From positions 1-31,043 of IMG/VR virus record IMGVR_UViG_3300020469_003694: DNA of 31,043 nt. One strand, given 5' to 3'. Under the pieces are notes generated by a model that searched no databases, was not told the origin of the DNA, and saw only the letters and a program-made list of their open reading frames with translations. The first letter of the stretch is position 1; every line of letters begins with the position of its first letter. The stretch is from a virus. Both the position numbers and the translations under genes were made by a program. Positions 61-14,866 of the stretch are shown here, one piece after another.

Positions 61-109
61 GTGCGTTCCTTCAGCGACTGCTTACTTCCGCCCTTTACGG
101 GTGAACGTT
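61..109 (-). promoter_or_regulatory. glnA-type glutamine riboswitch aptamer
   Basis: Read on the minus strand, this is a compact three-way junction. A closing stem CGTTC (107-103) pairs with GAACG (68-64). A CCC/GGG hairpin follows, then the invariant string GGAAGTA, a short AGC/GCT hairpin, and GAAGGAACGC. These blocks, in this order, are the signature of the glnA glutamine-binding RNA known from cyanobacteria and marine metagenomes. The segment is visibly richer in GC than its surroundings. It begins only about 14 bases after a late promoter box and ends about 30 bases before the ATG of the partial gene. Recognition is from memory of the consensus; a covariance-model scan would settle it. 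Confidence 0.88.
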
Positions 110-120
110 TAATGTAATAC

Positions 121-128
121 TATTTATA
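121..128 (-). promoter_or_regulatory. T4-type late promoter box TATAAATA
   Basis: The minus strand reads TATAAATA, exactly the T4 late promoter consensus recognised by the gp55/gp33 sigma system with the sliding clamp. No matching -35 hexamer is visible. It lies just upstream of the glutamine aptamer, so the transcript would begin almost directly with the riboswitch. An 8-base match can occur by chance in AT-rich DNA, but the placement in an intergenic region ahead of a new gene supports it. Confidence 0.65.
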
Positions 129-130
129 CA

Positions 131-478
131 TTAATCAGTGTCATATTTATATTCTTGATCAGAATCTACACTTGCGCATTTATCGAATTCATCCATATCA
201 TGAACATATAACTGAATGATAGCGTAATGTAATACTTTCAGTAAATCTTTACGAGCATCATCACTGGTACCTTTTTTGCCATATCTTTGAGCATACTTCA
301 TAATATTACCGATACAGAAACCTGTACCATGACCGCCATCAATAATAAATTCTGTAGCCTGAAAGTGCTGTCTAGAATAGTGACCAGTGTAAGTCGAGTC
401 AATTACTCTTTGTAACTCTTCTACATAATTATCTTCATTAAACTTATATTCACCTTTCGGTTCTTTTGTTTTATTCAT
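131..478 (-). CDS. DUF3310-like (nucleotide kinase-associated) protein
   Basis: This 115-residue protein has the core seen in DUF3310 proteins of many phages: HFQATEFI, then GFCIGNIMKYAQRYGKKG, then a helix with DLLKVLHYAI. The family is often annotated as a nucleotide-kinase-like protein, but its biochemical role is not established. I chose the second ATG because a GGAGG ribosome site lies 6 bases upstream; a longer reading to 502 has none. The gene overlaps the end of its upstream neighbour by 8 bases (ATGAATAA). It is the last gene of the early unit starting near 1998. Confidence 0.75.
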   Translation of the reverse strand: MNKTKEPKGEYKFNEDNYVEELQRVIDSTYTGHYSRQHFQATEFIIDGGHGTGFCIGNIMKYAQRYGKKGTSDDARKDLLKVLHYAIIQLYVHDMDEFDKCASVDSDQEYKYDTD

Positions 479-842
479 GCTCGCCTCCGGGGTCGTTATC
501 ATCTAATTTAATTCTTTTGCCATTATACCACATGTGTCTTGTTCTGCTTGGTGTATGATATCCATTTGTTCTTTGTTCTAATCTTAAAAAAAACTGTGGA
601 CGTCTTTTTGCAGTTTCAAAAGTAGCGACTGTTACTGCGATAGCCGCTAGTACAAATATATGAGCAACAGTAGTAACGCCAAAAATCCACATGCTACCAA
701 AGTAACTACTAAATACAATGCACCACATCCACGCTAAAACTTGAAGTACCATATGTCTTGTATTTGTATGCGGTATTTTTTTAAGTGGGTTAATATCCGC
801 ATTCATTATACCGTTCCAACTATCGTAAATAAACTGTCTCAT
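471..842 (-). CDS. Small membrane protein of marine T4-like phages, unknown function
   Basis: This 123-residue protein has a polar N-terminus with a MRQFIYDSWNG start and two probable membrane helices at about residues 32-54 and 56-74. The rest is a basic C-terminal tail ending in an acidic DDNDPGGEHE. The profile suggests an inner-membrane protein with both ends on the same side. I recognise it only as the sort of conserved unknown found in marine T4-like phages. Its ATG directly follows the stop of the upstream gene (TAAATG), so the two are probably translationally coupled. Confidence 0.6.
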   Translation of the reverse strand: MRQFIYDSWNGIMNADINPLKKIPHTNTRHMVLQVLAWMWCIVFSSYFGSMWIFGVTTVAHIFVLAAIAVTVATFETAKRRPQFFLRLEQRTNGYHTPSRTRHMWYNGKRIKLDDNDPGGEHE

Positions 843-1007
843 TTAAGACACATTGTATTGCTGTTTAACGACCAATACGTTCCAATCTGGATTTTCTTTC
901 ATCATAGCTGCTGCTTTTTCTTGTAGTTCTTCTTTATTGGTGCTGTATTCTGCTATCCATGTTTTTTGATTAGGAGCTTTTACAACTATTTTAAATTCAT
1001 TTTTCAT
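843..1007 (-). CDS. 54-residue unknown protein
   Basis: The short reading frame begins MKNEFKIVVKAP and ends VVKQQYNVS. It is well supported by position: its ATG overlaps the previous stop (ATGA at 1004-1007), and its stop abuts the next ATG. It therefore fills the only gap in this operon. The predicted pattern is strand, helix (KEELQEKAAAMMKE), strand, suggesting a small alpha/beta fold. No family is recognised. Confidence 0.6.
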   Translation of the reverse strand: MKNEFKIVVKAPNQKTWIAEYSTNKEELQEKAAAMMKENPDWNVLVVKQQYNVS

Positions 1008-1216
1008 TTAATACTACCTATCATTACTAATATTGCAACATAAAAAAATGCAAATACAAAAACTGGTGCCGCGTTTGATATTTTTTTAGTAGTCGGCGGC
1101 TCACGTTTTACGTAATATTGGCCCATGTAATCTCTATCCCAAGCGTCTCTTCTCGTATCTTGCTTTGTCTGGTCAAACTTTATAGACAGTGGATCTACTT
1201 TATAATCTTCTTTCAT
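1004..1216 (-). CDS. Small C-terminally anchored membrane protein
   Basis: This 70-residue protein has a charged, hydrophilic N-terminal half, rich in K, D and R. A single hydrophobic segment lies near the C-terminus (about residues 50-67, APVFVFAFFYVAILVMIG). It would be a tail-anchored inner-membrane protein. I place the start at the ATG that forms an ATGA overlap with the lysin-like gene upstream; a start three codons earlier is possible. Its position directly behind a cell-wall hydrolase makes a helper role in lysis (holin or spanin-like) conceivable, but nothing in the sequence proves it. Confidence 0.5.
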   Translation of the reverse strand: MKEDYKVDPLSIKFDQTKQDTRRDAWDRDYMGQYYVKREPPTTKKISNAAPVFVFAFFYVAILVMIGSIK

Positions 1217-1761
1217 TTTTCCCATCTGTAAAATATATGATCACCTACAATAAGTGTTTTTGTCTTGGTTTTTCTCCATGCTGGAAAAACATAGTTTGCA
1301 TGATAATGTGTTGCGCCTGCTGTTATATCTTCATTATATTGGCCAAAGAATATTATCCTAGCTATCTCAATAGCGATTCTATATACTTGTCTGTCATACA
1401 ATGGTATATCATCGCCTTTACCGTCACAGTACCAACTAAATTGACATCTGTTTTTAACTGGAAATAATATTGTTTTATCTTTCCAAGATGGCCTTGTTGG
1501 ACCTTGCTTTATTACTTCACAATACGTGTCAGGATACCGTTTATCACTAACACGATTATCGACTACAAATGCAACTGCAAACATACCTCTTACTGGTTGA
1601 TTACGTGCTTCCCAATATATATTATCCGCTAAACATGTAATTTGTTCAAATGCAGTACCTTTAATTGTATTTGCTGGTGCAGGTGGACTACAAAAACTTA
1701 AACCAAGGAATGCTAATGCGCCTACTAACATTCCTTTTACGTATGTTTGTGGATTATGCAT
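1213..1761 (-). CDS. SleB-like cell wall hydrolase (putative endolysin) with signal sequence
   Basis: The core matches the SleB/Hydrolase_2 family of peptidoglycan hydrolases: CLADNIYWEARNQPVRG, then VVDNRV, CQFSWYCDGK and finally ATHYHANYVFPAW. The early Glu in YWEAR is the likely catalytic acid. Residues about 10-25 are hydrophobic, followed by PAPA, which could be a signal-peptidase site, so export or membrane-release activation is likely. I chose the ATG at 1761 because GGGGT lies 5 bases upstream; the longer version would need a GTG. The gene overlaps its neighbours on both sides by a few bases. The probable role is host lysis. Confidence 0.8.
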   Translation of the reverse strand: MHNPQTYVKGMLVGALAFLGLSFCSPPAPANTIKGTAFEQITCLADNIYWEARNQPVRGMFAVAFVVDNRVSDKRYPDTYCEVIKQGPTRPSWKDKTILFPVKNRCQFSWYCDGKGDDIPLYDRQVYRIAIEIARIIFFGQYNEDITAGATHYHANYVFPAWRKTKTKTLIVGDHIFYRWEK

Positions 1762-1966
1762 ATCTACCCCAAAATTCACACCAAACTTCTTCTACATAGT
1801 CTTTGGCAATTTTAAGCTGATAAGATGATAGTGTCTTAGATAAAAGACTGCAGACTATGTCTGACGCTATTTCACATGTGTCAGAATCTGTGATAATATC
1901 TTCTAAGTCAACGCTGTTACAAACTGTTTCTTCAACATCCATCATATAATTTTTCATTTTAGCCAT
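1754..1966 (-). CDS. 70-residue acidic unknown protein
   Basis: The protein is acidic at the N-terminus (VEETVCNSVDLEDIITDSD), followed by helices and an aromatic end (VEEVWCEFWGRYA). An AGGGAG ribosome site lies 7 bases before the ATG, and an early promoter lies 32-60 bases upstream, so this is the first gene of the 131-1966 unit. No family is recognised. Confidence 0.6.
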   Translation of the reverse strand: MAKMKNYMMDVEETVCNSVDLEDIITDSDTCEIASDIVCSLLSKTLSSYQLKIAKDYVEEVWCEFWGRYA

Positions 1967-1997
1967 TTTTTAACTCCCTTTTTAATTTTATAATATT

Positions 1998-2026
1998 ATT
2001 ATACCATACTTTTCTATAAATGTAAA
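1998..2026 (-). promoter_or_regulatory. Early-type promoter P1 (TTTACA-17-TATAAT)
   Basis: On the minus strand TTTACA (2026-2021) and TATAAT (2003-1998) are separated by 17 bases, with a TGG extension before the -10 box. It shares the ATGGTATAATA core with the other promoters of this window. It drives the genes from 1966 down to 131. Confidence 0.85.
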
Positions 2027-2038
2027 GGAAAAAATTCA

Positions 2039-2308
2039 TTAAATTGTAACTTCGTACCTAAGATTTTCGGCAACCCAATCAACACCTAGATCGTGTGCAA
2101 TTGCTACAACTGCGTTTTCTCTAGGAAGTGTGTCCATATATTGGATTAACTTCTTTGCACCAGAATAATTCTTATCCTTAATCATATTAAGAATATGCTT
2201 GAAATCTTTAGCATCTTGCTTGTACATATCAGACATATCTTCGCTAATAGCCCAAGGTGCTTTAGAATCTGCGATTGTTCCTTTTATTAGATTATTTAAA
2301 TGCTTCAT
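2039..2308 (-). CDS. 89-residue unknown protein in its own transcription unit
   Basis: This is a mostly helical small protein starting MKHLNNLIKGTIADSKAPWA, with a run of charged residues, and ending in a short strand. AAGGAG sits 7 bases before the ATG, and a perfect early-type promoter lies 35-63 bases upstream. The next promoter begins just after its stop, so it seems to be expressed alone as an early gene. I recognise no family. Independent early expression would suit a protein acting on the host early in infection, but this is inference. Confidence 0.6.
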   Translation of the reverse strand: MKHLNNLIKGTIADSKAPWAISEDMSDMYKQDAKDFKHILNMIKDKNYSGAKKLIQYMDTLPRENAVVAIAHDLGVDWVAENLRYEVTI

Positions 2309-2342
2309 AATTCAACTCCTTAATTTTTTATTTTATAGATAT

Positions 2343-2371
2343 ATTATACCATAAAAAAAAGGAAATGTACA
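2343..2371 (-). promoter_or_regulatory. Early-type promoter P2 (TGTACA-17-TATAAT)
   Basis: On the minus strand TGTACA (2371-2366) and TATAAT (2348-2343) are spaced by 17 bases, with the TGG extended -10. It drives the gene 2039-2308. The -35 box overlaps the arm of an AT-rich hairpin that follows the glycan island. Confidence 0.85.
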
Positions 2372-2401
2372 CCTTTTTTTTCACTTAATTGAAAAAAAGT
2401 G
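2370..2401 (-). terminator. AT-rich hairpin after the glycan operon (possible terminator)
   Basis: An inverted repeat lies just past the stop of the last glycan gene. Nine base pairs (TTTTTTTCA with TGAAAAAAA) and an outer CAC/GTG flank a six-base loop. The stem has few GC pairs, so it is a weak candidate for an intrinsic terminator. It also abuts promoter P2. Confidence 0.35.
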
Positions 2402-2406
2402 TTGAA

Positions 2407-3033
2407 CTAGTTAACTAAATCCATTTTAGCTTTAGAATCATACGTTTTTACTGAAACGTTATCAGGTACTGGAAATTTAACTGCATCATGAATATGGTGC
2501 ATTATGAATTTTGTATTTGAAAATTCTTTAAACATGTTCTGCCAAACTGGTCGCCAATTATTTGCCAGCCTATGATTATTCATGTTACCTCTGTCAGAAT
2601 TAAGGTAGAAGTCAGAACAACTTCTTAGATTAAAATCAAATATAGAATCAAATCCATATAGATGAACTTCATCTGCTTTAATTTTATTTGCTGCATAGTG
2701 AACTGCCATGTGGCCGCAGTTAAAGTCTGTATAGTTTGCCACGTACTTTGGAAGTACTGTATAAAATTCTTTTACTTGGTGAGAGTGTTTTACGTAAAAT
2801 GTAGGCTGTTGATCCATCCATATCTTTGGTCTCATACCTAAGATCCAGTCACCAGGAATTGTAAGTGATCCTTCATGCAGTGCACGCATCATTTTAAAAT
2901 CTACCATGATAGTTCCATAAGCGCCTGCGACTGGCCACGGTGGAATGTTACAGGTTAACTTCATTCCGTTACGTTGTTCCTTATGAAATAAACTGGCTTG
3001 ATCACCGTTTCCTACAATATGAACTACTTTCAT
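2407..3033 (-). CDS. Sialyltransferase-like (GT29/GT42-type) glycosyltransferase, putative
   Basis: This 208-residue protein opens with a Rossmann-like strand and the loop HIVGNGDQASLF. Its second half contains GHMAVHYAANKIKADEVHLYGFDS. That pattern resembles the CDEVHLYGF-type S-motif of sialyltransferase-fold enzymes and the related DUF115 proteins. Family assignment by motif alone is uncertain, so the substrate cannot be named. It is the last gene of the glycan island and overlaps its upstream neighbour by ATGA, which supports a role in glycan assembly. Confidence 0.5.
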   Translation of the reverse strand: MKVVHIVGNGDQASLFHKEQRNGMKLTCNIPPWPVAGAYGTIMVDFKMMRALHEGSLTIPGDWILGMRPKIWMDQQPTFYVKHSHQVKEFYTVLPKYVANYTDFNCGHMAVHYAANKIKADEVHLYGFDSIFDFNLRSCSDFYLNSDRGNMNNHRLANNWRPVWQNMFKEFSNTKFIMHHIHDAVKFPVPDNVSVKTYDSKAKMDLVN

Positions 3034-3680
3034 AACATACTCCTAATCTTCTCTTTACCTTTCCGTCCAGTCCAATGCATTACTTTTATCTTCCCTTGAT
3101 AATCATCGTTTTCTGTTTGTATTCTCATGACGTTATATTCGTTAGGTAAGTCATTAACTGCACCTATCTTTGTAATAGGATTTAGCATTGAGTGTAATAC
3201 TTCTTGATCGCCAACTTTTGGATTTGCTTTCACTTGTTTCGCCCATTGTGTTAGTATTACAGGTTTATCTATAAATCCTACGATGCCTGAATTATGCCAG
3301 ACTTCATTACGTCTTTTAGTCCACGGTTTATCTTCAACCATATTTAATTTTTTTGGTTCTAGTAGACCGAATATATTATCTATATTATCTTTTATTTCAC
3401 AATCCATATCAATCCATACTGTCTTCTTGGCAGGACAACTTAACATTGATAATGGTTTTTTAAACCAGCCTTTCTCAGGTGATTTAGTCATGTCCATTAC
3501 GGCATGCACGTTTTTTCTTACGTACTGAAGAGCTGACTCTGTGACTCCAAAGTTAGCAAAGACAAGTGGCGTCTTGTTATGCTTTTTGTAATTACCTATA
3601 AACCATTCTAAAAACCATTCATGGTTCTTATCACAGCCAGTTAAAAAAGCTTCATTATATAATTTCGTAGGATTCGCCAT
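3030..3680 (-). CDS. GT-A fold glycosyltransferase (GT8-like)
   Basis: This 216-residue protein has a DxD-type metal and nucleotide-sugar motif in VWIDMDCEI at about residues 88-96. It also has WHNSGIVGF in the middle and the late MHWTGRKGK typical of GT8-like hexosyltransferases, where the His completes the metal site. It probably moves a sugar from a nucleotide donor onto a cell-surface or virion glycan. Its start overlaps the upstream gene by 26 bases and has no strong ribosome site, so coupling to upstream translation is likely. Confidence 0.7.
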   Translation of the reverse strand: MANPTKLYNEAFLTGCDKNHEWFLEWFIGNYKKHNKTPLVFANFGVTESALQYVRKNVHAVMDMTKSPEKGWFKKPLSMLSCPAKKTVWIDMDCEIKDNIDNIFGLLEPKKLNMVEDKPWTKRRNEVWHNSGIVGFIDKPVILTQWAKQVKANPKVGDQEVLHSMLNPITKIGAVNDLPNEYNVMRIQTENDDYQGKIKVMHWTGRKGKEKIRSML

Positions 3681-4296
3681 AATTATGTTTTGCGTAGCAA
3701 CCTGCTTTTTGTTGTATTGTAGTAAATGAGTCTCTTGCTTCTACTGGCCAAGGATAGTACTCACCTAAAGTAAACTTGCTTGAATGTATGTATATGTCCG
3801 TAGGACCTGCACTAAATACAGCTTCATCGATAAGTTGTTGTGCACCTTTTGGAGTTACACGATATGCGTGTGCACCAGGAAAGTACGGTTTAGAAACTAA
3901 TGATCCATATCCTATAAAAGATGGAGTATTAAATTTTCCATATGATGGCTTACCTAAGCTTAATATGTCAAACATTGGTAGTGATGGGACGTCTCCTACT
4001 AAAACTGCGTCATGTTCAAATATGTAAACAGGACGTTGTAGTTTAACACATTTCTTCCATAAACTGTGATGACTTAAGAAACCAGCGATACAATTTTCTG
4101 GTCTACTATACTTTTCAACAAAGCCATTTTTATTATACTTTAATTTTTTAAGTTCTTCGTATACATCGCAATTTTGTGGCGTATACGCTTTATGTTTTTT
4201 AATACCATAACCGAACACTTGTCCGCTTTTAATACATCTATTTGCGACTTGAACAGATCTTTCATTGTCCATCATTGTTATTACGTACATTATCAT
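3655..4296 (-). CDS. Glycosyltransferase family 25 (LPS-type), copy A
   Basis: This 213-residue protein has the GT25 hallmarks CIAGFLSHHSLWKKC, followed by VYIFEHDAVL, the acidic metal-binding strand. A later segment, HAYRVTPKGAQQLID, corresponds to the conserved end of the catalytic core. GT25 enzymes act in lipooligosaccharide synthesis, often adding galactose. The gene overlaps the next GT25 gene upstream by ATGA, and the two share the same architecture, which points to a tandem duplication. Start at MIMYV; the third codon is also ATG. Confidence 0.78.
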   Translation of the reverse strand: MIMYVITMMDNERSVQVANRCIKSGQVFGYGIKKHKAYTPQNCDVYEELKKLKYNKNGFVEKYSRPENCIAGFLSHHSLWKKCVKLQRPVYIFEHDAVLVGDVPSLPMFDILSLGKPSYGKFNTPSFIGYGSLVSKPYFPGAHAYRVTPKGAQQLIDEAVFSAGPTDIYIHSSKFTLGEYYPWPVEARDSFTTIQQKAGCYAKHNYGESYEII

Positions 4297-4991
4297 AGTG
4301 TTGTCGTTGACCTCAATCCTTGTACTCTTGTATAAAAGTTACGTGTTACGCCTAATTTTTCTATGAGTTGATAACACATCAATGCATCATTAGGCCACAT
4401 ACCGTGTTCTTGTGCAAGCTGCAGCATCTTAACAGCACCTGCCGGTTTAATTACATATGCAGAATTACCAGCTAATCCTTGCGGAACGTTAAATTCATCG
4501 ATACGAGGCACAGGTTGAAAAAAATCTACTCTTTCAAGTATCATGTCATGATATAGTTTTGATTTTCTTGTAGCCATTGATGGATCATTTATACCTATGA
4601 TATCAAAGTCAGAGTTTCTAAAAGTTCTATCTGAAGGTAGTTTTCTAATGATTCTTGCATCATGTTCAAAAATCATTATCATCTCATCTAGCTGCTTACA
4701 TTTTTGCCACAAGTACCAGTGACTTAAGAAACAAGATATACGTTTATCTTTATTTTGTGTAGGATATGCAGACTTTATCAAACCTGTTTTTAAGTCTGTT
4801 TCTTTACCTTCCCATGGATATTTCCATACGAGACCGTTTCCACCAGAGAAACCTAAAACTTTTTCTGTAGGCAAAGCGTAGTGCGATTCAAGATCATCAT
4901 CATATCCGTACTTAATATAACTTTCCTTAAGTTCTCTGTAACCGGCTTCAGAAAGTTTGTTGTCTTTAACAACTATTGCAAAAGCTTTCAT
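4293..4991 (-). CDS. Glycosyltransferase family 25 (LPS-type), copy B
   Basis: This 232-residue paralogue of the downstream gene carries RISCFLSHWYLWQKC and MIMIFEHDARI in the same order. NSAYVIKPAGAVKML follows near the C-terminus, and the tail ends LRSTTTL. It has an extra segment of about 25 residues near the N-terminus compared with copy A (KVLGFSGGNGLVWKYPWEG). It probably transfers a hexose onto an oligosaccharide. The two copies have diverged strongly outside the motifs, so they probably have different acceptors. Confidence 0.78.
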   Translation of the reverse strand: MKAFAIVVKDNKLSEAGYRELKESYIKYGYDDDLESHYALPTEKVLGFSGGNGLVWKYPWEGKETDLKTGLIKSAYPTQNKDKRISCFLSHWYLWQKCKQLDEMIMIFEHDARIIRKLPSDRTFRNSDFDIIGINDPSMATRKSKLYHDMILERVDFFQPVPRIDEFNVPQGLAGNSAYVIKPAGAVKMLQLAQEHGMWPNDALMCYQLIEKLGVTRNFYTRVQGLRSTTTL

Positions 4992-5413
4992 TTCATCACC
5001 TTTACTTCATCACCGTCTTCGATATAATATTTTCCAATACAGTATCTTTTAAGATACTCGCGTCTTGTATATGCAAAGTTATTAACATTATCTATTATGA
5101 TATCAAACCTAGGCTTGTTCCATACATCTTTCATAATCGCATTTATACTTTTCTGATTACCGGTATCGCACCTTGACCAAAATATTCTTTTATCGTTTAA
5201 GTATTGATATTTATCCGGTTGTTGTTTGTCAAATTCGTCGATACAATAAATGTTAGATCTTTGTAGGAATCTGTGAAACGCTGGTATGCTATTTTCTACA
5301 CCTACTTGTAATATGTTTATTGGTTTGTGCCTGTACTGAAAAAGCTGTTCTTCGTAAAATAAAGAATAGTTTTCTCTATTTGATTTATACCTTTTAAAAA
5401 GAGTGTCAAGCAT
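4988..5413 (-). CDS. Methyltransferase-fold protein, probably degenerate
   Basis: The 141-residue protein follows the plan of small class I methyltransferases from surface-sugar clusters: INILQVGVENS (strand 1 and loop), YCIDEFD (strand 2), FDIIIDNVNNF (strand 4), KYYIEDGDEV (strand 5). The usual glycine-rich loop (GxGxG) is replaced by VGVENSIP, and the DDGSH-like motif is reduced to DNVNN. It may therefore bind SAM poorly or have changed function. The start at 5413 gives an 8-base overlap with the upstream gene; a longer start at 5449 overlaps more. Confidence 0.5.
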   Translation of the reverse strand: MLDTLFKRYKSNRENYSLFYEEQLFQYRHKPINILQVGVENSIPAFHRFLQRSNIYCIDEFDKQQPDKYQYLNDKRIFWSRCDTGNQKSINAIMKDVWNKPRFDIIIDNVNNFAYTRREYLKRYCIGKYYIEDGDEVKVMK

Positions 5414-6137
5414 GAGAAAACTTTTCCAGTGCGGCACCTCCGTAAACACAATGGTGATTATCCATTACACTTAACAGTTGATACCACCCGTACTCAGCAG
5501 GCCAAAGTCTTTTTTCTTTATGCATCTTATGAACTAAGTCGCAGTCATACATGTCTCTTCTATGGAATATTAAATTATCATTTAGCCAATAGGACCAGTC
5601 ACGACTCCAAGTCTGATCAGTTTCAGGTGTAATGTAAACATGTTCTATGTCTTTAAATTTATCAAGTTTAACGTGTCTACCTCCACGGATAGCAAATCCA
5701 ATAGCCATCTTTTCATCATATGATTGATTTAAATACGCATTATAATTTAAATGTTCGGATACTATGGTGTCCCATCGAGTGCGAATTATCATATCATATT
5801 CTTCAGGTAGGTCTGCAACTTGATAAGCATGACCTATAAGCTGTTTTGTAGCATTCATTAATTTTGCCTGATTAGACATACCAGTCTTATTAATAAAATC
5901 TTTTTTATATGCATGATACTTAGGATGAGGATTATCGGTTACGCACTCACACCACGGATTATAATGTATATGTGGTTCAGGATAATATGTTGACTTAAAC
6001 TCTTCGGACATACCATTTTTTGTTTCTGTCCAAGAAGAAAAGAACATTGGTACATCAGGAAAAGCTTTTCTTAAGTGTCTTATATTTCTATTGATATTTC
6101 CTCTGGCTACGCCAGATATACAAATTGCAGGTTTCAT
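5406..6137 (-). CDS. WavE-like glycosyltransferase/LPS synthesis protein
   Basis: The 243-residue protein begins with ICISGVARGNINRNI and continues VPMFFSSWTET. At about residues 114-123 it has MIIRTRWDTI, the R-x-R-x-D motif of WavE-type LPS core enzymes. A late WPAEYGWYQLL is also in keeping with that group. The probable role is adding a sugar to a lipopolysaccharide-like acceptor. Its start overlaps the nucleotidyltransferase stop by one base, so they are probably made together. Substrate unknown. Confidence 0.62.
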   Translation of the reverse strand: MKPAICISGVARGNINRNIRHLRKAFPDVPMFFSSWTETKNGMSEEFKSTYYPEPHIHYNPWCECVTDNPHPKYHAYKKDFINKTGMSNQAKLMNATKQLIGHAYQVADLPEEYDMIIRTRWDTIVSEHLNYNAYLNQSYDEKMAIGFAIRGGRHVKLDKFKDIEHVYITPETDQTWSRDWSYWLNDNLIFHRRDMYDCDLVHKMHKEKRLWPAEYGWYQLLSVMDNHHCVYGGAALEKFSHA

Positions 6138-6871
6138 TATAACGTATCCAGTTTATCCCACCATTCACTATTTTTTAAATCATTTAGTTCTTCTGGTGTT
6201 CCCATACCAATCATTTTTTCTACACGAAATATTCCAACGTCTTCTTCTAAATAATTGTAAGTAGGTGCTAAGTAAAATTCGTTATTAGTTCTATCGTTTA
6301 CAGCCATCTGTTTTTCATGCGCCTTGATCCATTTTACCTCATCACTAAAATAATAGACGCCGACAGTAGCAAGACTACCTATGATTTCTTTTTCTTTAAG
6401 TTGAAGTAATTTATCATACGCATCGACATCAACATAACTGTGTTTAGGTTCTTCATGGTCAGGAATAAAAACTGGTATAAGACCGCCTGGATAAAGATCG
6501 TGTTCAATTATCTTATAAAATTTTTCGTTATTCCATACCATAAGTTGATCACAGTTTGCAACGATCATAGGTTCTCCACCAAACATGGAAGTCGCCAACC
6601 TTACAGTGCAGGCCGCGCCTTCAGTAAGACCGGGCGCTACAATAATGTTTGCGTTATCATAATATGATTTTATTATCTTATCAATTTCATACAGATCGAC
6701 ATGATCTTTTCTTACGATACAATTTAACTGAACGTCATCACCTAATCTTAAGTTGTCAACCACACGCTTAAACATAGGTTTGCCGTTAATGTCTATTAGA
6801 GGCTTAGGTAAAATATATCCATCATCAAAAAAACGTTGGCCGTTTCCAGCCATCGGTAGTATCACTTTCAT
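6137..6871 (-). CDS. Sugar-phosphate nucleotidyltransferase
   Basis: This is the classical NTP-transferase (PF00483-type) N-terminus: MKVILPMAGNGQRF followed by PKPLIDINGKPM, which bind the nucleotide phosphates and the sugar phosphate. IVANCDQL at about residues 102-109 carries the catalytic Asp. At 244 residues it matches the short glucose-1-phosphate-type enzymes. It should activate a sugar phosphate to an NDP-sugar for the surrounding transferases. Base specificity cannot be read by eye. It lies directly downstream of the RuBisCO-like gene with an ATGA overlap, so the RuBisCO-like product may feed it. Confidence 0.8.
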   Translation of the reverse strand: MKVILPMAGNGQRFFDDGYILPKPLIDINGKPMFKRVVDNLRLGDDVQLNCIVRKDHVDLYEIDKIIKSYYDNANIIVAPGLTEGAACTVRLATSMFGGEPMIVANCDQLMVWNNEKFYKIIEHDLYPGGLIPVFIPDHEEPKHSYVDVDAYDKLLQLKEKEIIGSLATVGVYYFSDEVKWIKAHEKQMAVNDRTNNEFYLAPTYNYLEEDVGIFRVEKMIGMGTPEELNDLKNSEWWDKLDTL

Positions 6872-8010
6872 GTGTCCATAGCCTTTCTCATTTCTTGAAC
6901 TTTCTTAATTAAACTATCGCCGGTGTGTAACCAGCCACCAACAGACGCCATAAAATTAGTGCCAATTCTTTCTCTTATTTCTCTTGCTAAGACTGGATTC
7001 ATACCACAACTTAACGAAGGTATGACATTGTATTTTGTACACATGTCTATCGCTTCTAAAGTTTCTTCTTCACTCTCACCTTCAGGATAGTAGCCACCTA
7101 ACATTCCAACATGCATACTATCTACACCAGCTAAACATCCTAACTTAGCGAGCACTGGCCAAGCTATCGAATATTTGTTACTTGGATCTGTAAGAATTCT
7201 TATTCCAGATCTTTGGTAATGCGTGGCGATATCAAATCCTCTTGCTGCAGTATATGCACCTAGGCCTGACCAAAAGTTAATATGGCATCCACCTACAACA
7301 TTATCTGAACATGTATAATAGTGTATAATTTTAATATTTTTTACTAACTCAAGTGGATCAGCATTTATACAGTATGCAAAATATCCTTTCCAACTAGATA
7401 TAGCTTTTAAATGTTCTACAGCTTCGACTCTTTTTTCTAGTGGCAAGTAAAGATTTTGAGCCATGATTTCATCTTCTTTAATGAAATCTGCTCCGCCATA
7501 AATCATACATTTTACGATCTCCATGTATTGTTCCATGTTCAGTCCTGATTTAGGTTTTATAATTGCGCCAAAAAGAGGACGATGCTCTGCATCTAAACGA
7601 TCTTTCCAGCCTGATAATCCTTGAACTGGTTTCATATAATCTACATCTATATCAATATCAATAACTCTGCACTTATCAACACCGATAATATCAGTATGAC
7701 CTCCCATCATAATACACATTAATTGATTTATATTTGGCCATATAAATGCGCTTTTTGGAAATTCTATCTTGACTATATCACCTTCAACTGATTTAATTTG
7801 AGCTTGGTACCTTTTAATGTTTGGCGCATTTTCAATTTCAGACCTGATGTTAGGATTTCCTATGCTTTGGCCAATTGCAATCTCATGTGCAATCTTTGGA
7901 ATATCTGGACCATCAACTTCATATGTGACGGTATATGTTTTCATCGGCTCAATAACCTGAGGTGGCTGCCATGTGTTAGTGACTGGTATATCAAAAGGGT
8001 TTGTGCTCAT
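6868..8010 (-). CDS. RuBisCO-like protein (form IV type)
   Basis: This 380-residue protein is homologous to the RuBisCO large subunit. IIKPKSGL (residues 150-157) holds equivalents of K175 and K177. DFIKEDE (175-181) keeps the carbamylated Lys (K178) and both acidic Mg ligands. H300 matches H327. The loop-6 lysine needed for carboxylation is replaced (K334 to Y307, in VGMLGGYYPEG). E60, T65 and W66 are also changed (IGQSIGNP), while LSCG (333-336) and VGG (357-359) retain much of the phosphate site. It should therefore enolise or isomerise a sugar phosphate rather than fix CO2. It lies between a sugar nucleotidyltransferase and a methyltransferase with ATGA overlaps, implying a role in making an unusual sugar. 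Known form IV enzymes serve methionine salvage and related pathways. Confidence 0.85.
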   Translation of the reverse strand: MSTNPFDIPVTNTWQPPQVIEPMKTYTVTYEVDGPDIPKIAHEIAIGQSIGNPNIRSEIENAPNIKRYQAQIKSVEGDIVKIEFPKSAFIWPNINQLMCIMMGGHTDIIGVDKCRVIDIDIDVDYMKPVQGLSGWKDRLDAEHRPLFGAIIKPKSGLNMEQYMEIVKCMIYGGADFIKEDEIMAQNLYLPLEKRVEAVEHLKAISSWKGYFAYCINADPLELVKNIKIIHYYTCSDNVVGGCHINFWSGLGAYTAARGFDIATHYQRSGIRILTDPSNKYSIAWPVLAKLGCLAGVDSMHVGMLGGYYPEGESEEETLEAIDMCTKYNVIPSLSCGMNPVLAREIRERIGTNFMASVGGWLHTGDSLIKKVQEMRKAMDT

Positions 8011-8627
8011 ATTCTTATCTCGTATTGTGTCATTCCATGTCTAAACATGTTTGTTAATTTATTTTTATTTATAAACTCATTGACTGCCTTGGTAACACCA
8101 GGCTTTTGCCATTTCGCATCTGGCCAACCATAGTCATCACCTATAATTAAACCACCAGCCTTAACAACCTGCAAAGAATTTTCTAAATCTTTAAGGCAGC
8201 CTTCATAAGAGTGGTCTCCATCTACGTAAATCCAGTCTAGCATCTCATCGTTGCCATGACCTTTAGATACGAGATACTGTTCGAACCATTCGTCTGACGT
8301 CATCCTACATATTTCAACTTCGCTATAAGTTCTAAATCTTTCTTTTATTTCAGCATAAACTCTATCGTAAAAAGTTTGAAATCCTGCTGGTGCGATTTCA
8401 CCAGTAATAGGCTGATATTTTGCAAGATACTCTTGATAACTCATTTCACTATTATCTTTGTAAGGTTCTATAGAATAAGCATCGACCATATAAAGTTTTT
8501 TTATCTTATTCTTTAGAAATAAAGTTGATGTATTACCCATCCAAACACCAATTTCTGCGCCTACAGTATCTGGCTTTATTAAGTGTGTAATGTTTCTTGA
8601 ATCTTTATTTGTATGAGTTGCCATCAT
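8007..8627 (-). CDS. Class I SAM-dependent methyltransferase (Methyltransf_24 type)
   Basis: The 206-residue protein has a full SAM-binding core: VGAEIGVWMGNTS (motif I, residues about 22-34), LYMVDAYS (motif II), and LDWIYVDGDHSYEGCLKDL, the VDGxHxYxxxxxD signature of this family. AGGLIIGDDYGWP follows. Such enzymes O-methylate sugars in bacterial surface polysaccharides. Unlike the methyltransferase-like protein at 4988-5413, this one looks intact. It precedes the RuBisCO-like gene with an ATGA overlap, suggesting a shared product. Start: two ATGs in a row; the first is used. Confidence 0.75.
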   Translation of the reverse strand: MMATHTNKDSRNITHLIKPDTVGAEIGVWMGNTSTLFLKNKIKKLYMVDAYSIEPYKDNSEMSYQEYLAKYQPITGEIAPAGFQTFYDRVYAEIKERFRTYSEVEICRMTSDEWFEQYLVSKGHGNDEMLDWIYVDGDHSYEGCLKDLENSLQVVKAGGLIIGDDYGWPDAKWQKPGVTKAVNEFINKNKLTNMFRHGMTQYEIRI

Positions 8628-8632
8628 GATAA

Positions 8633-9403
8633 TTATACCTTAAAATATTTACTTCCATTGCTAATTGCTCTTACTAAGTGGTGAGACCTATATGAACCCG
8701 GACTGTCATATATATGTATGTCTTCATAATTCATATATAATTGAGCTACATGCATCATACCAGAATCACTACCAACATGAAACTTTGCATTTGCCATTGC
8801 TAATCCAATGTGTGGTATTGAACTCTTTAATAATCCTTTACCTTCGCCACCTACGTATAATGCTGGACATCCATACTTATCATGTATTTCTTTTCTCATT
8901 GCTTCTGGTATCGTTCTTTGTGAATCAGTAGAATCCCACTGTACAGTAATAAATTCATCTGGCAACCAACCATTATCAACAATAGGTTTTAACTTAGGTG
9001 ACTCTTTTATATATTGTGACATTTCAATACCGACACGAGTCTCGTTAGGATGCATATGAATTGTATCTGCGTAGTGATAAATGTATGCGTCATATCCTTC
9101 AGATTTTAAATATTTAATCCAATCAACTTCTGATAAGTTTTCTACAGGATGTGGCTCTAAGTATAATGTATCAGAAGGAAACAAGGACAGTATTTCTATC
9201 CAAGATTTTTTCTTTTTACCTGATGGCTTACCACCAGCAATACTCCATTTATCATCAGTGATATGTATCGTAACAGGTGAGTTATGAGCTTTTCCATATT
9301 GATATGCAATCATAGCACTATGAACTCTATCACCTAGACCCGGTGTAGTGTATGGCCTGTCACCACTTCTTACACTTTTTGATCTTAATGCGATGTGTTT
9401 CAA
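8633..9403 (-). CDS. Heptosyltransferase-like (GT9-type) glycosyltransferase
   Basis: The 256-residue protein has the GT-B pattern of GT9 enzymes. An N-terminal TPGLGDRVHSAMIAYQYGKA resembles the GDxL-type acceptor loop. The C-terminal HVGSDSGMMHVAQLY is close to the DSGxMHLA donor-phosphate motif. It is shorter than typical heptosyltransferases (about 320-350 residues). It probably adds a sugar to an LPS-core-like acceptor. It sits in a chain of overlapping glycan genes; its stop lies six bases from the next start. Confidence 0.65.
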   Translation of the reverse strand: MKHIALRSKSVRSGDRPYTTPGLGDRVHSAMIAYQYGKAHNSPVTIHITDDKWSIAGGKPSGKKKKSWIEILSLFPSDTLYLEPHPVENLSEVDWIKYLKSEGYDAYIYHYADTIHMHPNETRVGIEMSQYIKESPKLKPIVDNGWLPDEFITVQWDSTDSQRTIPEAMRKEIHDKYGCPALYVGGEGKGLLKSSIPHIGLAMANAKFHVGSDSGMMHVAQLYMNYEDIHIYDSPGSYRSHHLVRAISNGSKYFKV

Positions 9404-9744
9404 TGGCTTTTCTTTTCTGTAAAATCGCTACCGAAATAGATGTCTATCCGCTTCTTAGTCTCATGTCTTAAATCATTAAGTTGCGTAATTAAAAATGCAG
9501 TATCAGATTCTTTCTTACTGTATCTTTCTACGTCTTTTCTCTTAGCATCTTCTAAATCCCATAGCTGTAAGTTTATGGCTTTTATTACATTTAAATAATA
9601 GTCATGACCATCGTCTAAATCAATTAACCTATGATGATAGTTTGTTAATTCATTCTCAACGTCTAGTCCTTTTTCTTTTTTAATTTTTAGTATCGATAAT
9701 CTATCTAAATAGTCGCCTACGCTTATTGCAGTTGCAATTTTCAT
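9400..9744 (-). CDS. DUF6165-like small protein of glycan clusters
   Basis: The 114-residue, mostly helical protein begins ATAISVGDYLDRLSILKIKKEKG. This resembles the VSxGELIDKxTILEIK opening of a small family often found beside LPS and capsule genes. The rest is charged helices, probably a coiled hairpin. No catalytic motif is visible; it could be a chaperone or scaffold for the flanking transferases. It has ATGA overlaps with both neighbours, so it is translationally coupled within the island. The family name is from memory. Confidence 0.5.
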   Translation of the reverse strand: MKIATAISVGDYLDRLSILKIKKEKGLDVENELTNYHHRLIDLDDGHDYYLNVIKAINLQLWDLEDAKRKDVERYSKKESDTAFLITQLNDLRHETKKRIDIYFGSDFTEKKSH

Positions 9745-10550
9745 TGTACAATCTCCATCAACTCTTGAACATTTTCACCATGATTCGGTAATTTATCTTT
9801 AAGAAAGAAATGTACGAAATATGCTTCTTTAATTTTATCGTTCGGTATCGCAGTAAATAACGCGTTCCATTTCCAACTTAATTCTTGTTGAATCATATTT
9901 TCTTTCTTAATCCAATAGTTTAAAAGAGTCTGATCAGTGCTCCATTTCCATGCGCCTAAACCATCTACAAATCTTTTAAACTCAGGTCTCTCTATAAACT
10001 GCTTTCCAGTTTGACCTTTTAAGTGTTTAATAATATTTCTATCTAATAGCATTAAACCCATGTTATAAAAATGGCCACCGTCATTGTTCCATTTCCAATC
10101 AACGTCATCTAAACTACTATATTGCATTCTTGTATAGCCGGCTAATTTTTGTTTATACCACGGCAATATTGGTGCCGTTCTTTCTATGACACCTGCGAAA
10201 TCTGATTCAAAATTTAACTCGTTAAATATATTAGGAGAATCTGGTCTAATCCAGATATCTGCATCTATGATTGCTATTTGATCGTATTTACTCCAATAAT
10301 CAAATGCGTTTTCTTTTTCATATATCGGTAAGAATCCACCGTATTTTTCATACGATTCTTTACTACGATTTGTAGCAAATACGTCTGGCTTAATCATCAT
10401 TTTTGGAACTGTTTGGACTATGTAGTCTACACGGTTTTGCGGTTTTTCTTTACTGCTTATGTCAGCAGCATATGCTTTAACCGAAGCTGTACAATGATCA
10501 TACAACTTTGACTTCTTTCCGGTATAAACTTGATAAATCAATCTTTTCAT
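9741..10550 (-). CDS. GT-A fold glycosyltransferase with DAD motif
   Basis: This 269-residue protein has the donor and metal-binding strand IAIIDADIWIRP (about residues 92-103). It is preceded by a GT8-like ENAFDYWSKYD helix and followed by GGHFYNMGLMLLDR, the FNxGxM-type motif of the same fold. A late YFVHFFL may supply the metal-binding His. It is the first gene of the glycan island proper and follows the EF-hand membrane gene by 15 bases. The sugar and acceptor are unknown. Confidence 0.68.
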   Translation of the reverse strand: MKRLIYQVYTGKKSKLYDHCTASVKAYAADISSKEKPQNRVDYIVQTVPKMMIKPDVFATNRSKESYEKYGGFLPIYEKENAFDYWSKYDQIAIIDADIWIRPDSPNIFNELNFESDFAGVIERTAPILPWYKQKLAGYTRMQYSSLDDVDWKWNNDGGHFYNMGLMLLDRNIIKHLKGQTGKQFIERPEFKRFVDGLGAWKWSTDQTLLNYWIKKENMIQQELSWKWNALFTAIPNDKIKEAYFVHFFLKDKLPNHGENVQELMEIVQ

Positions 10551-10565
10551 AACAAAACCTTATAA

Positions 10566-10907
10566 TTATTTTTTAATATTATTCTTATTATTCAATGCTT
10601 GTGTACCAAAATATGCTGCTACAATTGCTGCTACAGAAACATAATAAACTGCAGCCATATCACCTAGTATCTTTGCAGCTTGATCTAAGCCTATCAGTAA
10701 AGCAAATACCACACCTGATGGATAAAGTAACATTCCAGCTAAAGCAAACCATGCCATGTATCTTTGTGCATCTTGTCTTTTATCTTCATTTTCTAAGCGC
10801 ATCATTCTTTCATCCATGTCAAGCTCTTCATCTGTAACGATACCATCGCCGTCAATATCTAGGTGCGCGTATTGACTTTCTTTTTCTAGTTTCTTTTGCG
10901 CTGCCAT
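10566..10907 (-). CDS. EF-hand membrane protein
   Basis: The 113-residue protein contains a textbook calcium loop at residues 17-28 (DIDGDGIVTDEE): D17, D19, D21, T25 and E28 occupy the ligand positions. A charged helix (about 31-48) and two hydrophobic helices (about 50-74 and 84-105) follow. A single EF-hand with two membrane spans suggests a cytoplasmic calcium-binding head on an inner-membrane anchor. The start is firm: AGGAG lies 8 bases upstream, although the gene overlaps the previous one by 56 bases. Similar proteins occur in other marine phages; function unknown. Confidence 0.7.
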   Translation of the reverse strand: MAAQKKLEKESQYAHLDIDGDGIVTDEELDMDERMMRLENEDKRQDAQRYMAWFALAGMLLYPSGVVFALLIGLDQAAKILGDMAAVYYVSVAAIVAAYFGTQALNNKNNIKK

Positions 10908-11136
10908 TATAGAACTCCTTTATTATCTTCGCTATTTTTAAAGCGTCTTTAAAACCATTACGAAGAGAATTTGACCTGTGGCCATTTTCTATAAACCATT
11001 CTATGTTATTTATATTAGAACCTTCTGACATATTATAACCCTTAGTAAGTTGCTCAAACTCAAATCTAAGTTGTACAATTCTAGTTAATCCTATTGACAT
11101 GTCAGTGTCCAAATAATTTTCTTTTTCTATATTCAT
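10852..11136 (-). CDS. 94-residue basic unknown protein
   Basis: This predicted helical protein has a basic end (KETRKRKSIRAPRY). The ATG at 11136 has GAGGA 8 bases upstream and overlaps the nuclease gene by 35 bases. A later ATG at 11100 would avoid the overlap but has no ribosome site. Its C-terminal 18 codons overlap the EF-hand gene in another frame, which is unusual but both frames look real. No family is recognised. Confidence 0.5.
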   Translation of the reverse strand: MNIEKENYLDTDMSIGLTRIVQLRFEFEQLTKGYNMSEGSNINNIEWFIENGHRSNSLRNGFKDALKIAKIIKEFYNGSAKETRKRKSIRAPRY

Positions 11137-11791
11137 CAATCGTATCCTCTAATAATTTAGTCCAGTTATCTCTATGTTCTACGAACACACACGGTTTTTC
11201 ATGATCAACATCCATAATGATTACTACATTTGGTATTTTCATTCCCGTTCTTTCTTCGTACATGATGGCATAAGCTGCACCTTGCGCGAAATAGTTTGTG
11301 ATTCTTTCTTTCTTCTTAATATATTTAGAAGTTTTAAAATCAATTATTGAAGGTACACCATTAAACTGTGCAATGCAATCGCATCTTCCAGCTAATTGTA
11401 AATGATGACTAAATAGAGGCACCTCGAGACCGAATATCGTTCCAATACTTTCATCAAGTACAGGTTTGAGATTTGCGAGGCTTTGTCTGATGTGTGGTAA
11501 GAACTCTGTCGTATCTTCATTATTTAAATACTTTTCTACTATACTATGTACTTTTGTACCGCGTCTAGACGCTTTACCACTAATTATATCTGCTTGTTCT
11601 ACGCCTACTCGTTCACGCCATGCTCTTATGGCATCTTCACTGAGTATGCTTAAAACTGTTGTGATACTAGGATAAGACTTACCATCAGGAGTATTATAAG
11701 TTCTCCCTGTGTTTGTAGTTGTAGCAACCAAGTCTTTATATCCGATATCAATTTTGTCATGACTAAATATTTTTCTTTTCCTTCTTATCAT
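11102..11791 (-). CDS. PD-(D/E)XK (RecB/Cas4-like) nuclease
   Basis: All elements of the RecB-type nuclease fold are visible in the 229 residues. There is a helix with KVHSIVEKYL (H82), a strand with GLEVPL (E123), GRCDCI (D138), and IIDFKTSKY (D151 and K153). After these comes the QGAAYAIMYEE helix (Q170, Y174). The enzyme should cut or resect DNA using Mg. Similar single-domain nucleases in T4-like marine phages are annotated as exonucleases. It could act in recombination, packaging or host DNA degradation. The start at 11791 overlaps the upstream gene by 29 bases without a clear ribosome site. Confidence 0.78.
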   Translation of the reverse strand: MIRRKRKIFSHDKIDIGYKDLVATTTNTGRTYNTPDGKSYPSITTVLSILSEDAIRAWRERVGVEQADIISGKASRRGTKVHSIVEKYLNNEDTTEFLPHIRQSLANLKPVLDESIGTIFGLEVPLFSHHLQLAGRCDCIAQFNGVPSIIDFKTSKYIKKKERITNYFAQGAAYAIMYEERTGMKIPNVVIIMDVDHEKPCVFVEHRDNWTKLLEDTIDEYRKRKLFGH

Positions 11792-12026
11792 AATTATATT
11801 GAAATATTTCCTTTACTTCATCGTAAGGTAAGCAATAAATCGATTCAGGCGTATGTTTATAATTATATGATGCGCTGGCCGCTGAATATATTCTTTGATG
11901 CATAACAGCCACATAATTTTTACACTCGTCGGCACTTTCAAAGCTCGGGTTTTGAAATACATAAAGTGGTCTATCTAGTGCTGCAGTATTTGCCATTATA
12001 AAAGATACTATAATAAAAAATTTCAA
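11763..12026 (-). CDS. Small secreted protein, unknown
   Basis: The N-terminus MKFFIIVSFIMANTAALDR is a compact signal peptide with a likely cleavage after NTAA. The mature part, about 70 residues, has two cysteines (DECKNY and IYCLPY) that could form a disulfide in the periplasm. It ends in a lysine-rich tail. No family is recognised. A phage protein sent to the periplasm could act in lysis, in superinfection exclusion or on a host envelope target, but this is inference. Confidence 0.55.
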   Translation of the reverse strand: MKFFIIVSFIMANTAALDRPLYVFQNPSFESADECKNYVAVMHQRIYSAASASYNYKHTPESIYCLPYDEVKEIFQYNYDKKEKKNI

Positions 12027-12035
12027 TTTATTCTC

Positions 12036-12266
12036 CTAAGTTTTTATAGTGTTACCTCTACCAGAGCCTTCTTTTATTCTCTGTAAATTGTCTTTCCAAC
12101 CCTGATCGGTTTTTGACAAGAGACTTCCATGACCACCAATAACACTAGGAAACCTAAGAACTTTTATGCAATTGTGTTTCTTTAAATAGAGTTGTAACTC
12201 TTCTGCGCTACATTGTATATCGTATTCATCGCCTTCTTCTAAAGGCTTTACTGTATATCTAGGCAA
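12036..12266 (-). CDS. Conserved marine T4-like phage protein (FmdB-like neighbourhood), TTG start
   Basis: From the proposed TTG the protein has 76 residues. It reads PRYTVKPLEEGDEYDIQCS, then a helix AEELQLYLKKH, and ends TDQGWKDNLQRIKEGSGRGN. That end resembles the DGFxDxLxxIKxxxxG tail of a small protein common in T4-like cyanophages. The TTG has AAAGGA 7 bases upstream and overlaps the previous stop (TTGCCTAG). The longer frame to 12365 would overlap the upstream gene by over 100 bases and is unlikely. The cysteines of a full zinc ribbon are not all present. Function unknown. Confidence 0.6.
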   Translation of the reverse strand: MPRYTVKPLEEGDEYDIQCSAEELQLYLKKHNCIKVLRFPSVIGGHGSLLSKTDQGWKDNLQRIKEGSGRGNTIKT

Positions 12267-12819
12267 CTTGAAATCCTTTCCACCAGTCAGGTGCCGATCT
12301 TCCCCAATCCCACTTAGCAAAAGGTTTTGCTTTGTGGTAGTAGTTTCTATATGCTTGAACTGCATCGCCAGGAACCATGCAATCAGGATAGTGAGTCATG
12401 GCTTGTACGAATTCGGTAAGACCTATATCTGGTATATTTATAGGAGGAGCAGCTAATATAGGACCTAATTTTTTAAAAGTTATATGATCTTTATTTCTAC
12501 GAAATTTAAATTCTCTAGACATCTCAACAAAATGTGCGTAGTGCCAGTTGTAGTTTGCAAGGCTTGCAGCAGTCCACGTAGTACAAGGGTGATACTTATG
12601 TACTGCAAGATAATATAAGTCATCACGTATATCGCCAAAAGAATAATACGTTTGCATTGTTTTACCAGACTTTGACCTACGTTTTTCTGGTGTACCATCA
12701 AGCATACGATGTACGGTACTTAGCATTTGAGCTGATTCGATAATCATCTTTGGAACGTGCTTGTCACAAAGCATTTGTGCTGCTACATGTGGATCTTCGT
12801 CTAGTATAAAAATATTCAT
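12259..12819 (-). CDS. Conserved phage protein of unknown function (MNIFILDEDP family)
   Basis: The 186-residue protein begins MNIFILDEDPHVAAQMLCDK, followed by HVPKMIIESAQML. It includes HKYHPCTTWTAAS, LAAPPINIPD and AVQAYRNYYHKAK. I recall closely similar proteins in many T4-like and other phages, where they are listed as hypothetical. The strict conservation of His, Cys, Asp and Trp suggests an enzyme, perhaps metal-dependent. It is the first gene after promoter P3 and so heads the long unit that continues through the nuclease into the glycan island. Confidence 0.65.
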   Translation of the reverse strand: MNIFILDEDPHVAAQMLCDKHVPKMIIESAQMLSTVHRMLDGTPEKRRSKSGKTMQTYYSFGDIRDDLYYLAVHKYHPCTTWTAASLANYNWHYAHFVEMSREFKFRRNKDHITFKKLGPILAAPPINIPDIGLTEFVQAMTHYPDCMVPGDAVQAYRNYYHKAKPFAKWDWGRSAPDWWKGFQVA

Positions 12820-12841
12820 ATTTCACCTTTTAAATAATATA

Positions 12842-12870
12842 ATTGTATCATGTTTTTCACAGTTTGTAAA
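12842..12870 (-). promoter_or_regulatory. Early-type promoter P3 (TTTACA-17-TACAAT)
   Basis: On the minus strand TTTACA (12870-12865) and TACAAT (12847-12842) are 17 bases apart, with TGA as an extended -10. It deviates from the others in the -10 box and lacks the ATGG lead, so it may be weaker. It is the only promoter I see for the 10-kb unit from 12819 to 2407. Confidence 0.7.
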
Positions 12871-12881
12871 CAGTTATTCTT

Positions 12882-13034
12882 TTAATTGATTTGAAATTTA
12901 TCCTCCAGTACTTTTAATAACTTGACTTTTTTTCTTATGAAATCTCTTTTCTTATCGATCTTTTCCATACGATTAATTCTACCTCTCTTTTTAAATTTTA
13001 GTCCGTAGTCTTTTTCAAGTTGTTGTAGTACCAT
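12882..13034 (-). CDS. 50-residue highly basic protein
   Basis: The short frame reads MVLQQLEKDYGLKFKKRGR and is about one third Lys or Arg, ending VLEDKFQIN. AGGTAAAGAG directly precedes the ATG and could serve as the ribosome site. It fills the space between the DUF6433-like gene and promoter P3. The charge and helical pattern suggest nucleic-acid binding. No family is recognised, and a chance frame cannot be excluded. Confidence 0.5.
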   Translation of the reverse strand: MVLQQLEKDYGLKFKKRGRINRMEKIDKKRDFIRKKVKLLKVLEDKFQIN

Positions 13035-13061
13035 CTCTTTACCTTTCGTAAGGTTGTAGAG

Positions 13062-13478
13062 TTAGTCCTGTAGTAGTTTTGGAAAGGCCTCCTCTACAAC
13101 TGGTTTGGAAATTCCGGGGATCTTCTTTTTATTAATCATATTAAGTACGAGCTTGGCATCTTCAGGATGTACACCTTCTAGTATACCTATGAATATTTGC
13201 TCTTTCTTATATTTTGGCATCTTATCACCTGGTCCACCTCTAACAAAATACTTGAACTGACCGTTTTGTTTTGTTAGATTAGTAGGATGACTGTGCGCTG
13301 CAGCTGCAGTATATGGTGGTTCGCCTTCAGGTAGATTCCATTTGATTGTAGAATCCATTGAACCTCTTATAATATCTTTTAAAGCCCATGTTTCATTTTC
13401 TTTTAAAACACGAACTTTCTCATCGCGACTTCTTTGCTTTGCCATTTCTTCTAGGACTTCAAAAACATATTGTTTCAT
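13062..13478 (-). CDS. DUF6433-like conserved T4-type phage protein
   Basis: The 138 residues follow a pattern I recall from T4-like cyanophages: YVFEVLEEMAKQRSRDEKV, then LKDIIRGSMDSTIKWNLPEG, PPYTAAAAHSHPTNL, FKYFVRGG, and FIGILEGVHPEDAKLVLNM. The gene often lies beside RNase H, as here, where its start overlaps the rnh stop by one base. Function is not established; the link to rnh suggests DNA metabolism. The family name is from memory. Confidence 0.65.
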   Translation of the reverse strand: MKQYVFEVLEEMAKQRSRDEKVRVLKENETWALKDIIRGSMDSTIKWNLPEGEPPYTAAAAHSHPTNLTKQNGQFKYFVRGGPGDKMPKYKKEQIFIGILEGVHPEDAKLVLNMINKKKIPGISKPVVEEAFPKLLQD

Positions 13479-14347: not shown

Positions 14348-14631
14348 TAACCAATCCTTTTGTTATTATAATAATCATAAGTTCTTTTATAAACATAAAC
14401 ATCCCATAGTGTGGCATTCTTGATACCACCTACGCAATCACCAAAGTAAGTAAAACCGTTAATTGGTTTTCTACCTTTCTTTTCAACTCTAAACTTTACA
14501 GTTTCAGAATTACATGCACGTACGATCGATTTAACCATTGCAAATTCTGCCATGTCTCTAGGATCTTTAGGATCAAACCTACCTATCCATGATGTTGACG
14601 CTCTTTCGTGTTTACCAATGTGTATTCCCAT
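14347..14631 (-). CDS. 94-residue unknown protein
   Basis: The protein starts MGIHIGKHERASTSWIGRFD and has a central helix (MAEFAMVKSIVRACNS) and a basic stretch (VEKKGRKP). It ends in aromatic residues (VYVYKRTYDYYNNKR). A GGGAGC ribosome site precedes the ATG, which overlaps the upstream stop (TAATG). No family is recognised. Co-transcription with rnh suggests a replication-linked role, unproven. Confidence 0.6.
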   Translation of the reverse strand: MGIHIGKHERASTSWIGRFDPKDPRDMAEFAMVKSIVRACNSETVKFRVEKKGRKPINGFTYFGDCVGGIKNATLWDVYVYKRTYDYYNNKRIG

Positions 14632-14831: not shown

Positions 14832-14866
14832 ATAATATTCTCCGCTTTTTTTATTTTAATAGATAT

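Follow-up and report, generated by a model that had tools for sequence, protein, structure and literature searches.

A type-1 glutamine riboswitch directly behind a putative T4-type late promoter in a marine T4-like phage

To our knowledge, few riboswitches have been described in phages, and in the only detailed report a glutamine riboswitch is linked to a tmRNA. Glutamine riboswitches of both type 1 and type 2 act as ON switches in cyanobacteria, where the known partners, among them IF17 (an inhibitor of glutamine synthetase) and DUF4278 proteins, are small and basic (PMC6316151). The roles of G22, G23 and C60 in the glutamine-bound aptamer have been described (PMC11477058), and the G23-C60 pair is the linchpin of the bound form (PMC11477058, PMC5393176). 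Phage carriage of these RNAs has already been reported for Mosig and Melnitz, and the glutamine riboswitch of Methylophilales phage Melnitz was published as controlling tmRNA (PMC9004378). An earlier survey described no riboswitches in pelagimyophages (PMC7029224).

The locus described here lies at the start of IMG/VR virus record IMGVR_UViG_3300020469_003694 (hereafter the window, i.e. the whole stretch of 31,043 nucleotides that was analyzed). With the cyanobacterial type-1 riboswitch (RF01739, e.g. the gifB/IF17 leader of Synechocystis) it shares the aptamer, an identical ligand-binding junction, a small basic protein downstream and a probable ON logic. Unlike that system, the window version is phage-encoded, is apparently driven by a late promoter, has a compact phage-specific hairpin around the Shine-Dalgarno (SD) sequence and precedes an unrelated protein of 31-37 aa. 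The picocyanobacterial type-2 riboswitch (RF01704) is a glutamine aptamer before ORFs of 17-100 aa, comparable to the small ORF of the window, but the window scores 11.6 bits against an RF01704 cut-off of 33 bits and window-type peptides lack DUF4278. Among phages, the Mosig riboswitch resembles the window in having a late-like CATAAATA box, then an aptamer, an SD and a small basic protein of 51 aa (Mosig_00116), although this protein comes from a different small-protein family. Melnitz, a Kyanoviridae myophage, has an RF01739 aptamer and a hairpin of the same shape followed by a basic ORF of 32 aa; it differs in having been published as a case of tmRNA control, in lacking a late-type box in the last 32 upstream bases and in a peptide that is distantly alike. 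The RNA class and its carriage by phages are therefore known; what is new relative to the open-access literature is the recurrent late-promoter architecture, the covarying SD platform and the constant micropeptide partner.

A covariance-model search placed a type-1 glutamine (glnA) riboswitch aptamer on the minus strand of the window at 109-60, with a score of 54.7 bits against the RF01739 gathering cut-off of 35 bits (E = 1.4e-9 over the whole window and 6.7e-11 when the first 1.5 kb was searched). The alignment spans the full model (1-53) without truncation and is the sole Rfam match at gathering level within the window. This confirms the glutamine aptamer, which the original prediction had recognized from conserved glnA blocks in order on the minus strand and had proposed to check with the Rfam glnA and Downstream-peptide models. 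The latter (type 2, RF01704) gave no meaningful match, and type-2 identity was rejected. The glutamine-bound crystal construct (sequence: PMC5393176) has exactly the same junction strands: A, CGGAAGUAA, UGAAG and C60, the C that follows P1. Assignment to type 1 is based on this conserved ligand-binding junction, including G22/G23 and C60, and on a 5' UTR position with an expression platform, namely an SD-masking hairpin before the ATG of an ORF under selection. We infer from the sequence that the window RNA binds glutamine. The covariance-model match, the identity of the binding junction with that of the crystallized aptamer and a conserved promoter spacing together support reading the locus as a glutamine riboswitch that comes immediately after a T4-type late promoter.

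The putative T4-type late promoter box, TATAAATA, is located at 128-121 on the minus strand, 13 bases ahead of P1 (CGTTC at 107), in agreement with the roughly 14 bases first estimated. The upstream gene (131-502, minus strand) encodes a DUF3310 protein of 123 aa (PF11753; Pfam E = 1.1e-9), and its stop codon falls just before the box; because this gene ends at 131, the promoter and riboswitch occupy the whole intergenic gap. Nearby long ORFs lie on the same strand as the riboswitch. The box was rejected as evidence on its own, since the bare string is no commoner than chance in the AT-rich window (7 found, 7.46 expected). All seven copies (window 121-15925) are on the minus (coding) strand, though their number is that of chance. 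The significance of the box comes instead from its fixed position across relatives. A pattern scan of IMG/VR for the aptamer found at least 119 loci, and a second one, across 84,980 species genomes of bacteria and archaea, found at least 120 stretches with the aptamer. Among the matches listed, TATAAATA occurred within 30 nt of P1 in 54 of 87 distinct phage loci (shuffled control: mean 0.69, maximum 4), and a relaxed form of the box within 30 nt of the aptamer in 78 of the 87, so that part of the phage loci lack the strict string. Only 4 of 173 cellular copies listed had TATAAATA within this distance of P1. Box positions in the phage loci cluster 14-21 bases ahead of P1 (-14 to -21), a constant short distance which, together with the difference between phage and cellular copies, marks late-promoter placement as a conserved, phage-specific feature. 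T4-type late transcription takes place late in infection and depends on gp55, gp33 and gp45. The box and the type of phage suggest such late use here, with late timing of expression; if T4 is a guide, transcription would begin at about position 115-117.

Between the aptamer and the start codon lies the expression platform. The SD (GGGAGGG; 45-39, minus strand) is 7 bases before the ATG (31-29, minus strand), and the original description of a strong ribosome site and an ATG about 30 bases beyond the aptamer holds. The SD is masked by a hairpin, CACUCU-AA-CUA...UAG-GG-AGGGUG (63-37, minus strand), with a predicted energy of -8.8 kcal/mol, a stability reached by 0.8% of shuffles. Nearly all phage leaders have a hairpin of this kind, (G)CACCU-AA-CUU...AAG-GA-GGGUG(U), likewise masking the SD between aptamer and ATG, whereas cellular aptamer leaders carry downstream structures that differ from it. 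Double changes, with both partners altered, occur at two of its pairs: 14 cells are of this type against 5.6 in shuffles, and none of 500 shuffles reached that number. Sliding the hairpin partners weakened the covariation signal; two covarying pairs provide limited evidence for the hairpin. In the ligand-free leader of the window, both the MFE and centroid folds contain the hairpin and lack P1, while the folding energy of the whole leader was modestly but not significantly more stable than that of shuffles (z = -1.19). The first base of the hairpin, a cytosine at position 63 on the minus strand, is the equivalent of C60, the partner of G23 in bound aptamers, and at many loci the last P1 base also pairs in the hairpin. 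Since the hairpin uses C60, it would compete with the bound aptamer, which predicts a glutamine ON switch, the polarity known for both types in cyanobacteria. When C60 and the last P1 base are kept from pairing in the hairpin, the mean penalty is 3.9 kcal/mol. In the nearest-neighbor model, however, the hairpin core stays folded without C60 and the SD has an unpaired probability of about 0.49 in both states, so that the ribosome or tertiary structure would have to assist full opening.

The gene behind the platform starts at 31 on the minus strand (MTYRPFQWKM...) and runs off the window edge at position 1, and ten of its codons are present, as had been noted from the outset. In relatives that share this start the gene is complete and encodes a very basic peptide of 31-37 aa, e.g. 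MTYRPFQWKMFVKARKRALVHKILNYRLLLKAA (locus L081; net charge +9, pI 11.6), which is predicted to fold as one helix (residues 5-32, mean pLDDT 88). A pN/pS of 0.36 indicates purifying selection on the peptide, and differences by codon position show an excess at the third position (941/959/1558), these counts being pairwise sums and hence not independent. A peptide-only scan, which used a degenerate DNA pattern for the peptide start and was independent of the aptamer, yielded 42 loci. Every one has the aptamer immediately ahead of the peptide gene: the aptamer scan had already found 26, and the 16 that are new have it without exception. Two of the new loci (L271, L284) have two glutamine aptamers in tandem ahead of the same micropeptide. 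Twelve loci extend more than 600 nt downstream; in 11 of them the gene after the peptide is convergent, and this gene differs between phages. The peptide is thus probably the only target of the riboswitch, and the unit most likely consists of one promoter, one riboswitch and one micropeptide. The same grounds led us to reject control of a large operon or virion gene; in place of the virion function originally envisaged, the relatives carry the basic micropeptide, probably as a unit of its own.

Pfam and NCBIfam searches with 24 peptides of the family returned no match, and the family matches neither the IF7/IF17 glutamine synthetase inactivating factors nor DUF4278 in these databases. Searches of PHROGs and PDB families were equally negative, and tblastn against isolated phages gave chance matches alone, in Weissella phages. 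The micropeptide has been overlooked in annotations. One candidate role is to act on the host's nitrogen enzymes, as suggested by the small basic proteins known as glutamine riboswitch partners in cyanobacteria (IF17, DUF4278); a function in late lysis or packaging is another candidate.

Aptamer identity, promoter-aptamer spacing, peptide linkage, purifying selection, and a covarying hairpin that overlaps C60 are directly supported. We consider it probable that they belong to a single-gene late unit of a marine T4-like phage, in which a late promoter, an aptamer, an SD-masking hairpin and a micropeptide gene form an ON switch. Late RNA polymerase would start just ahead of the aptamer. At low glutamine the aptamer's 3' end would pair with the SD region and leave the micropeptide untranslated. 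At high glutamine the aptamer would fold round its ligand, C60 would pair with G23 and leave the hairpin, and the loosened hairpin would allow the basic helical peptide of 31-37 aa to be made.

The opposite polarity, in which glutamine stabilizes the aptamer together with an SD-masking hairpin stacked on P1 and the peptide is made only under nitrogen shortage, would be compatible with a hairpin that directly abuts P1 and whose core survives without C60 in the energy model. Cellular relatives moreover precede glutamine synthetase and similar genes, where repression by glutamine is the expected logic. Those cellular leaders have other downstream structures, though, and the first pair of the phage hairpin takes C60, while at many loci a further pair takes the last P1 base, both of them bases that the bound aptamer needs; the studied glutamine riboswitches of both types, too, activate expression (PMC6316151). 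An OFF switch therefore appears unlikely. Less likely again is that TATAAATA is no late promoter but arose by coincidence in AT-rich sequence, and that early or middle transcripts of the upstream gene carry the riboswitch. The chance frequency of the string in the window would fit this, as would the failure of an attempt to predict late promoters in pelagimyophages (PMC7029224), but neither accounts for the position-specific enrichment among the phage matches listed (54/87 against 0.69 expected) or for the near absence of the box ahead of the cellular aptamers listed (4/173).

The tmRNA control published for Melnitz (PMC9004378) invites the reading that the riboswitch governs a neighboring tmRNA or a larger downstream operon and that the short ORF is incidental. 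In the Melnitz genome (MZ577097.1) the RF01739 aptamer (52.8 bits) is at 46398-46446 and does overlap the end of the annotated tmRNA (45984-46436), but the tmRNA lies upstream of the aptamer, and what comes directly after it is an SD and a basic 32 aa ORF at 46469-46564 on the plus strand (L150 1970-2068). This ORF is unannotated in the GenBank record, which lists an antisense ORF (46492-46593) instead. In Mosig (MT647606) the aptamer (92197-92250, minus strand) follows the CATAAATA box and precedes an SD and the 51 aa Mosig_00116; tRNAs but no tmRNA are found within 3 kb around it. The order of aptamer, SD and small basic ORF is therefore common to both isolated phages, which suggests that the published reading is mistaken and that a micropeptide target probably fits Melnitz better; relative to the open-access literature, this likely correction is new. 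The window itself contains neither tRNA nor tmRNA, its relatives have a convergent and variable neighbor behind a constant peptide, and the peptide is under purifying selection, all of which makes control of a tmRNA or operon very improbable. Harder still to credit is that the aptamer derives from a host riboswitch and has decayed to a functionless state. RF01739-type aptamers are numerous in marine bacteria, Pelagibacteraceae among them, and these could have been the source, but the binding junction is identical to that of the crystallized aptamer, P3 pairing is kept by compensatory changes (GGC/GCC, AGC/GCT, CAC/GTG, TGC/GCA, AAC/GTT), the phage-specific platform covaries and the peptide is linked to the aptamer in 42 of 42 loci.

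Other phage aptamers precede the 51 aa family, a 63-69 aa family (PHROG 32989, of unknown function) and further short proteins. At four loci (L012, L077, L023 and L037) viral riboswitches precede small proteins with YRG repeats; the L012 protein matches DUF4278 above the Pfam cut-off, that of L077 matches it weakly, and those of L023 and L037 look alike. Relatives of 65 aa and 51 aa in Pelagibacter podophages and siphophages have no riboswitch upstream, and the switch is thus not tied to these proteins everywhere. Members of the 51 aa family and of a 54-65 aa family, both small and basic but unrelated, occupy the same slot beside the same neighbor in different Pelagibacter phages, again without a riboswitch (L147 1471-1997; L292 601-1124), near a DNA maturase B gene or, in HTVC023P, a peptidase M15 gene. 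Their shared slot hints that the two families may be interchangeable late proteins.

The cellular aptamers, among the matches listed, are mostly from marine Alphaproteobacteria (including a Pelagibacteraceae genome), SAR86 and other Gammaproteobacteria. Judged by sequence recognition and not by family search, the genes behind them resemble those for glutamine synthetase, an ammonium transporter, GOGAT and others. These genes often stand behind two tandem aptamers, while the phage version usually has a single aptamer and has a promoter, platform and target that are new relative to the cellular one. A 2018 review called glutamine riboswitches restricted to cyanobacteria; loci L151-L270 show that they are common, and often tandem, in these marine groups. 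Some of those in SAR86 precede outer-membrane-like proteins.

The data point to a far more widespread arrangement than that reported to date, in which glutamine level would decide whether late transcripts of a single micropeptide are read. SAR11 and OM43 are two abundant marine bacterial groups; if the reading is true, relatives of their phages sense a metabolite directly late in infection, and a late infection step may be gated by host nitrogen state. A broader proposal, which we regard as possible but doubtful, is a glutamine-gated late checkpoint common to marine T4-like phages of heterotrophs. In this scheme a host-type aptamer, rewired behind late promoters, would respond to plentiful glutamine by turning on very small, interchangeable basic proteins, whose targets would be nitrogen enzymes of the host or the timing of lysis or packaging. 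Mosig and Melnitz carry a similar design and are in culture, on HTCC1062 and H5P1 respectively, so these ideas can already be put to the test.

The DNA polymerase of the window phage is closest to that of Phage C48C1 (49.6% identity; Kyanoviridae). The window also encodes a RuBisCO-like protein (PF00016, E = 9.4e-21; 6868-8010, minus strand), an unusual phage cargo, within a cluster of glycosyltransferase-like, methyltransferase and nucleotidyltransferase genes. Two neighboring genes beside that of the DNA polymerase encode a PnrA/Bmp-type ABC transporter substrate-binding protein (PF02608, E = 4.8e-44; 30219-31043, minus strand) and an IscA-like Fe-S assembly protein (PF01521; 29917-30222, minus strand).
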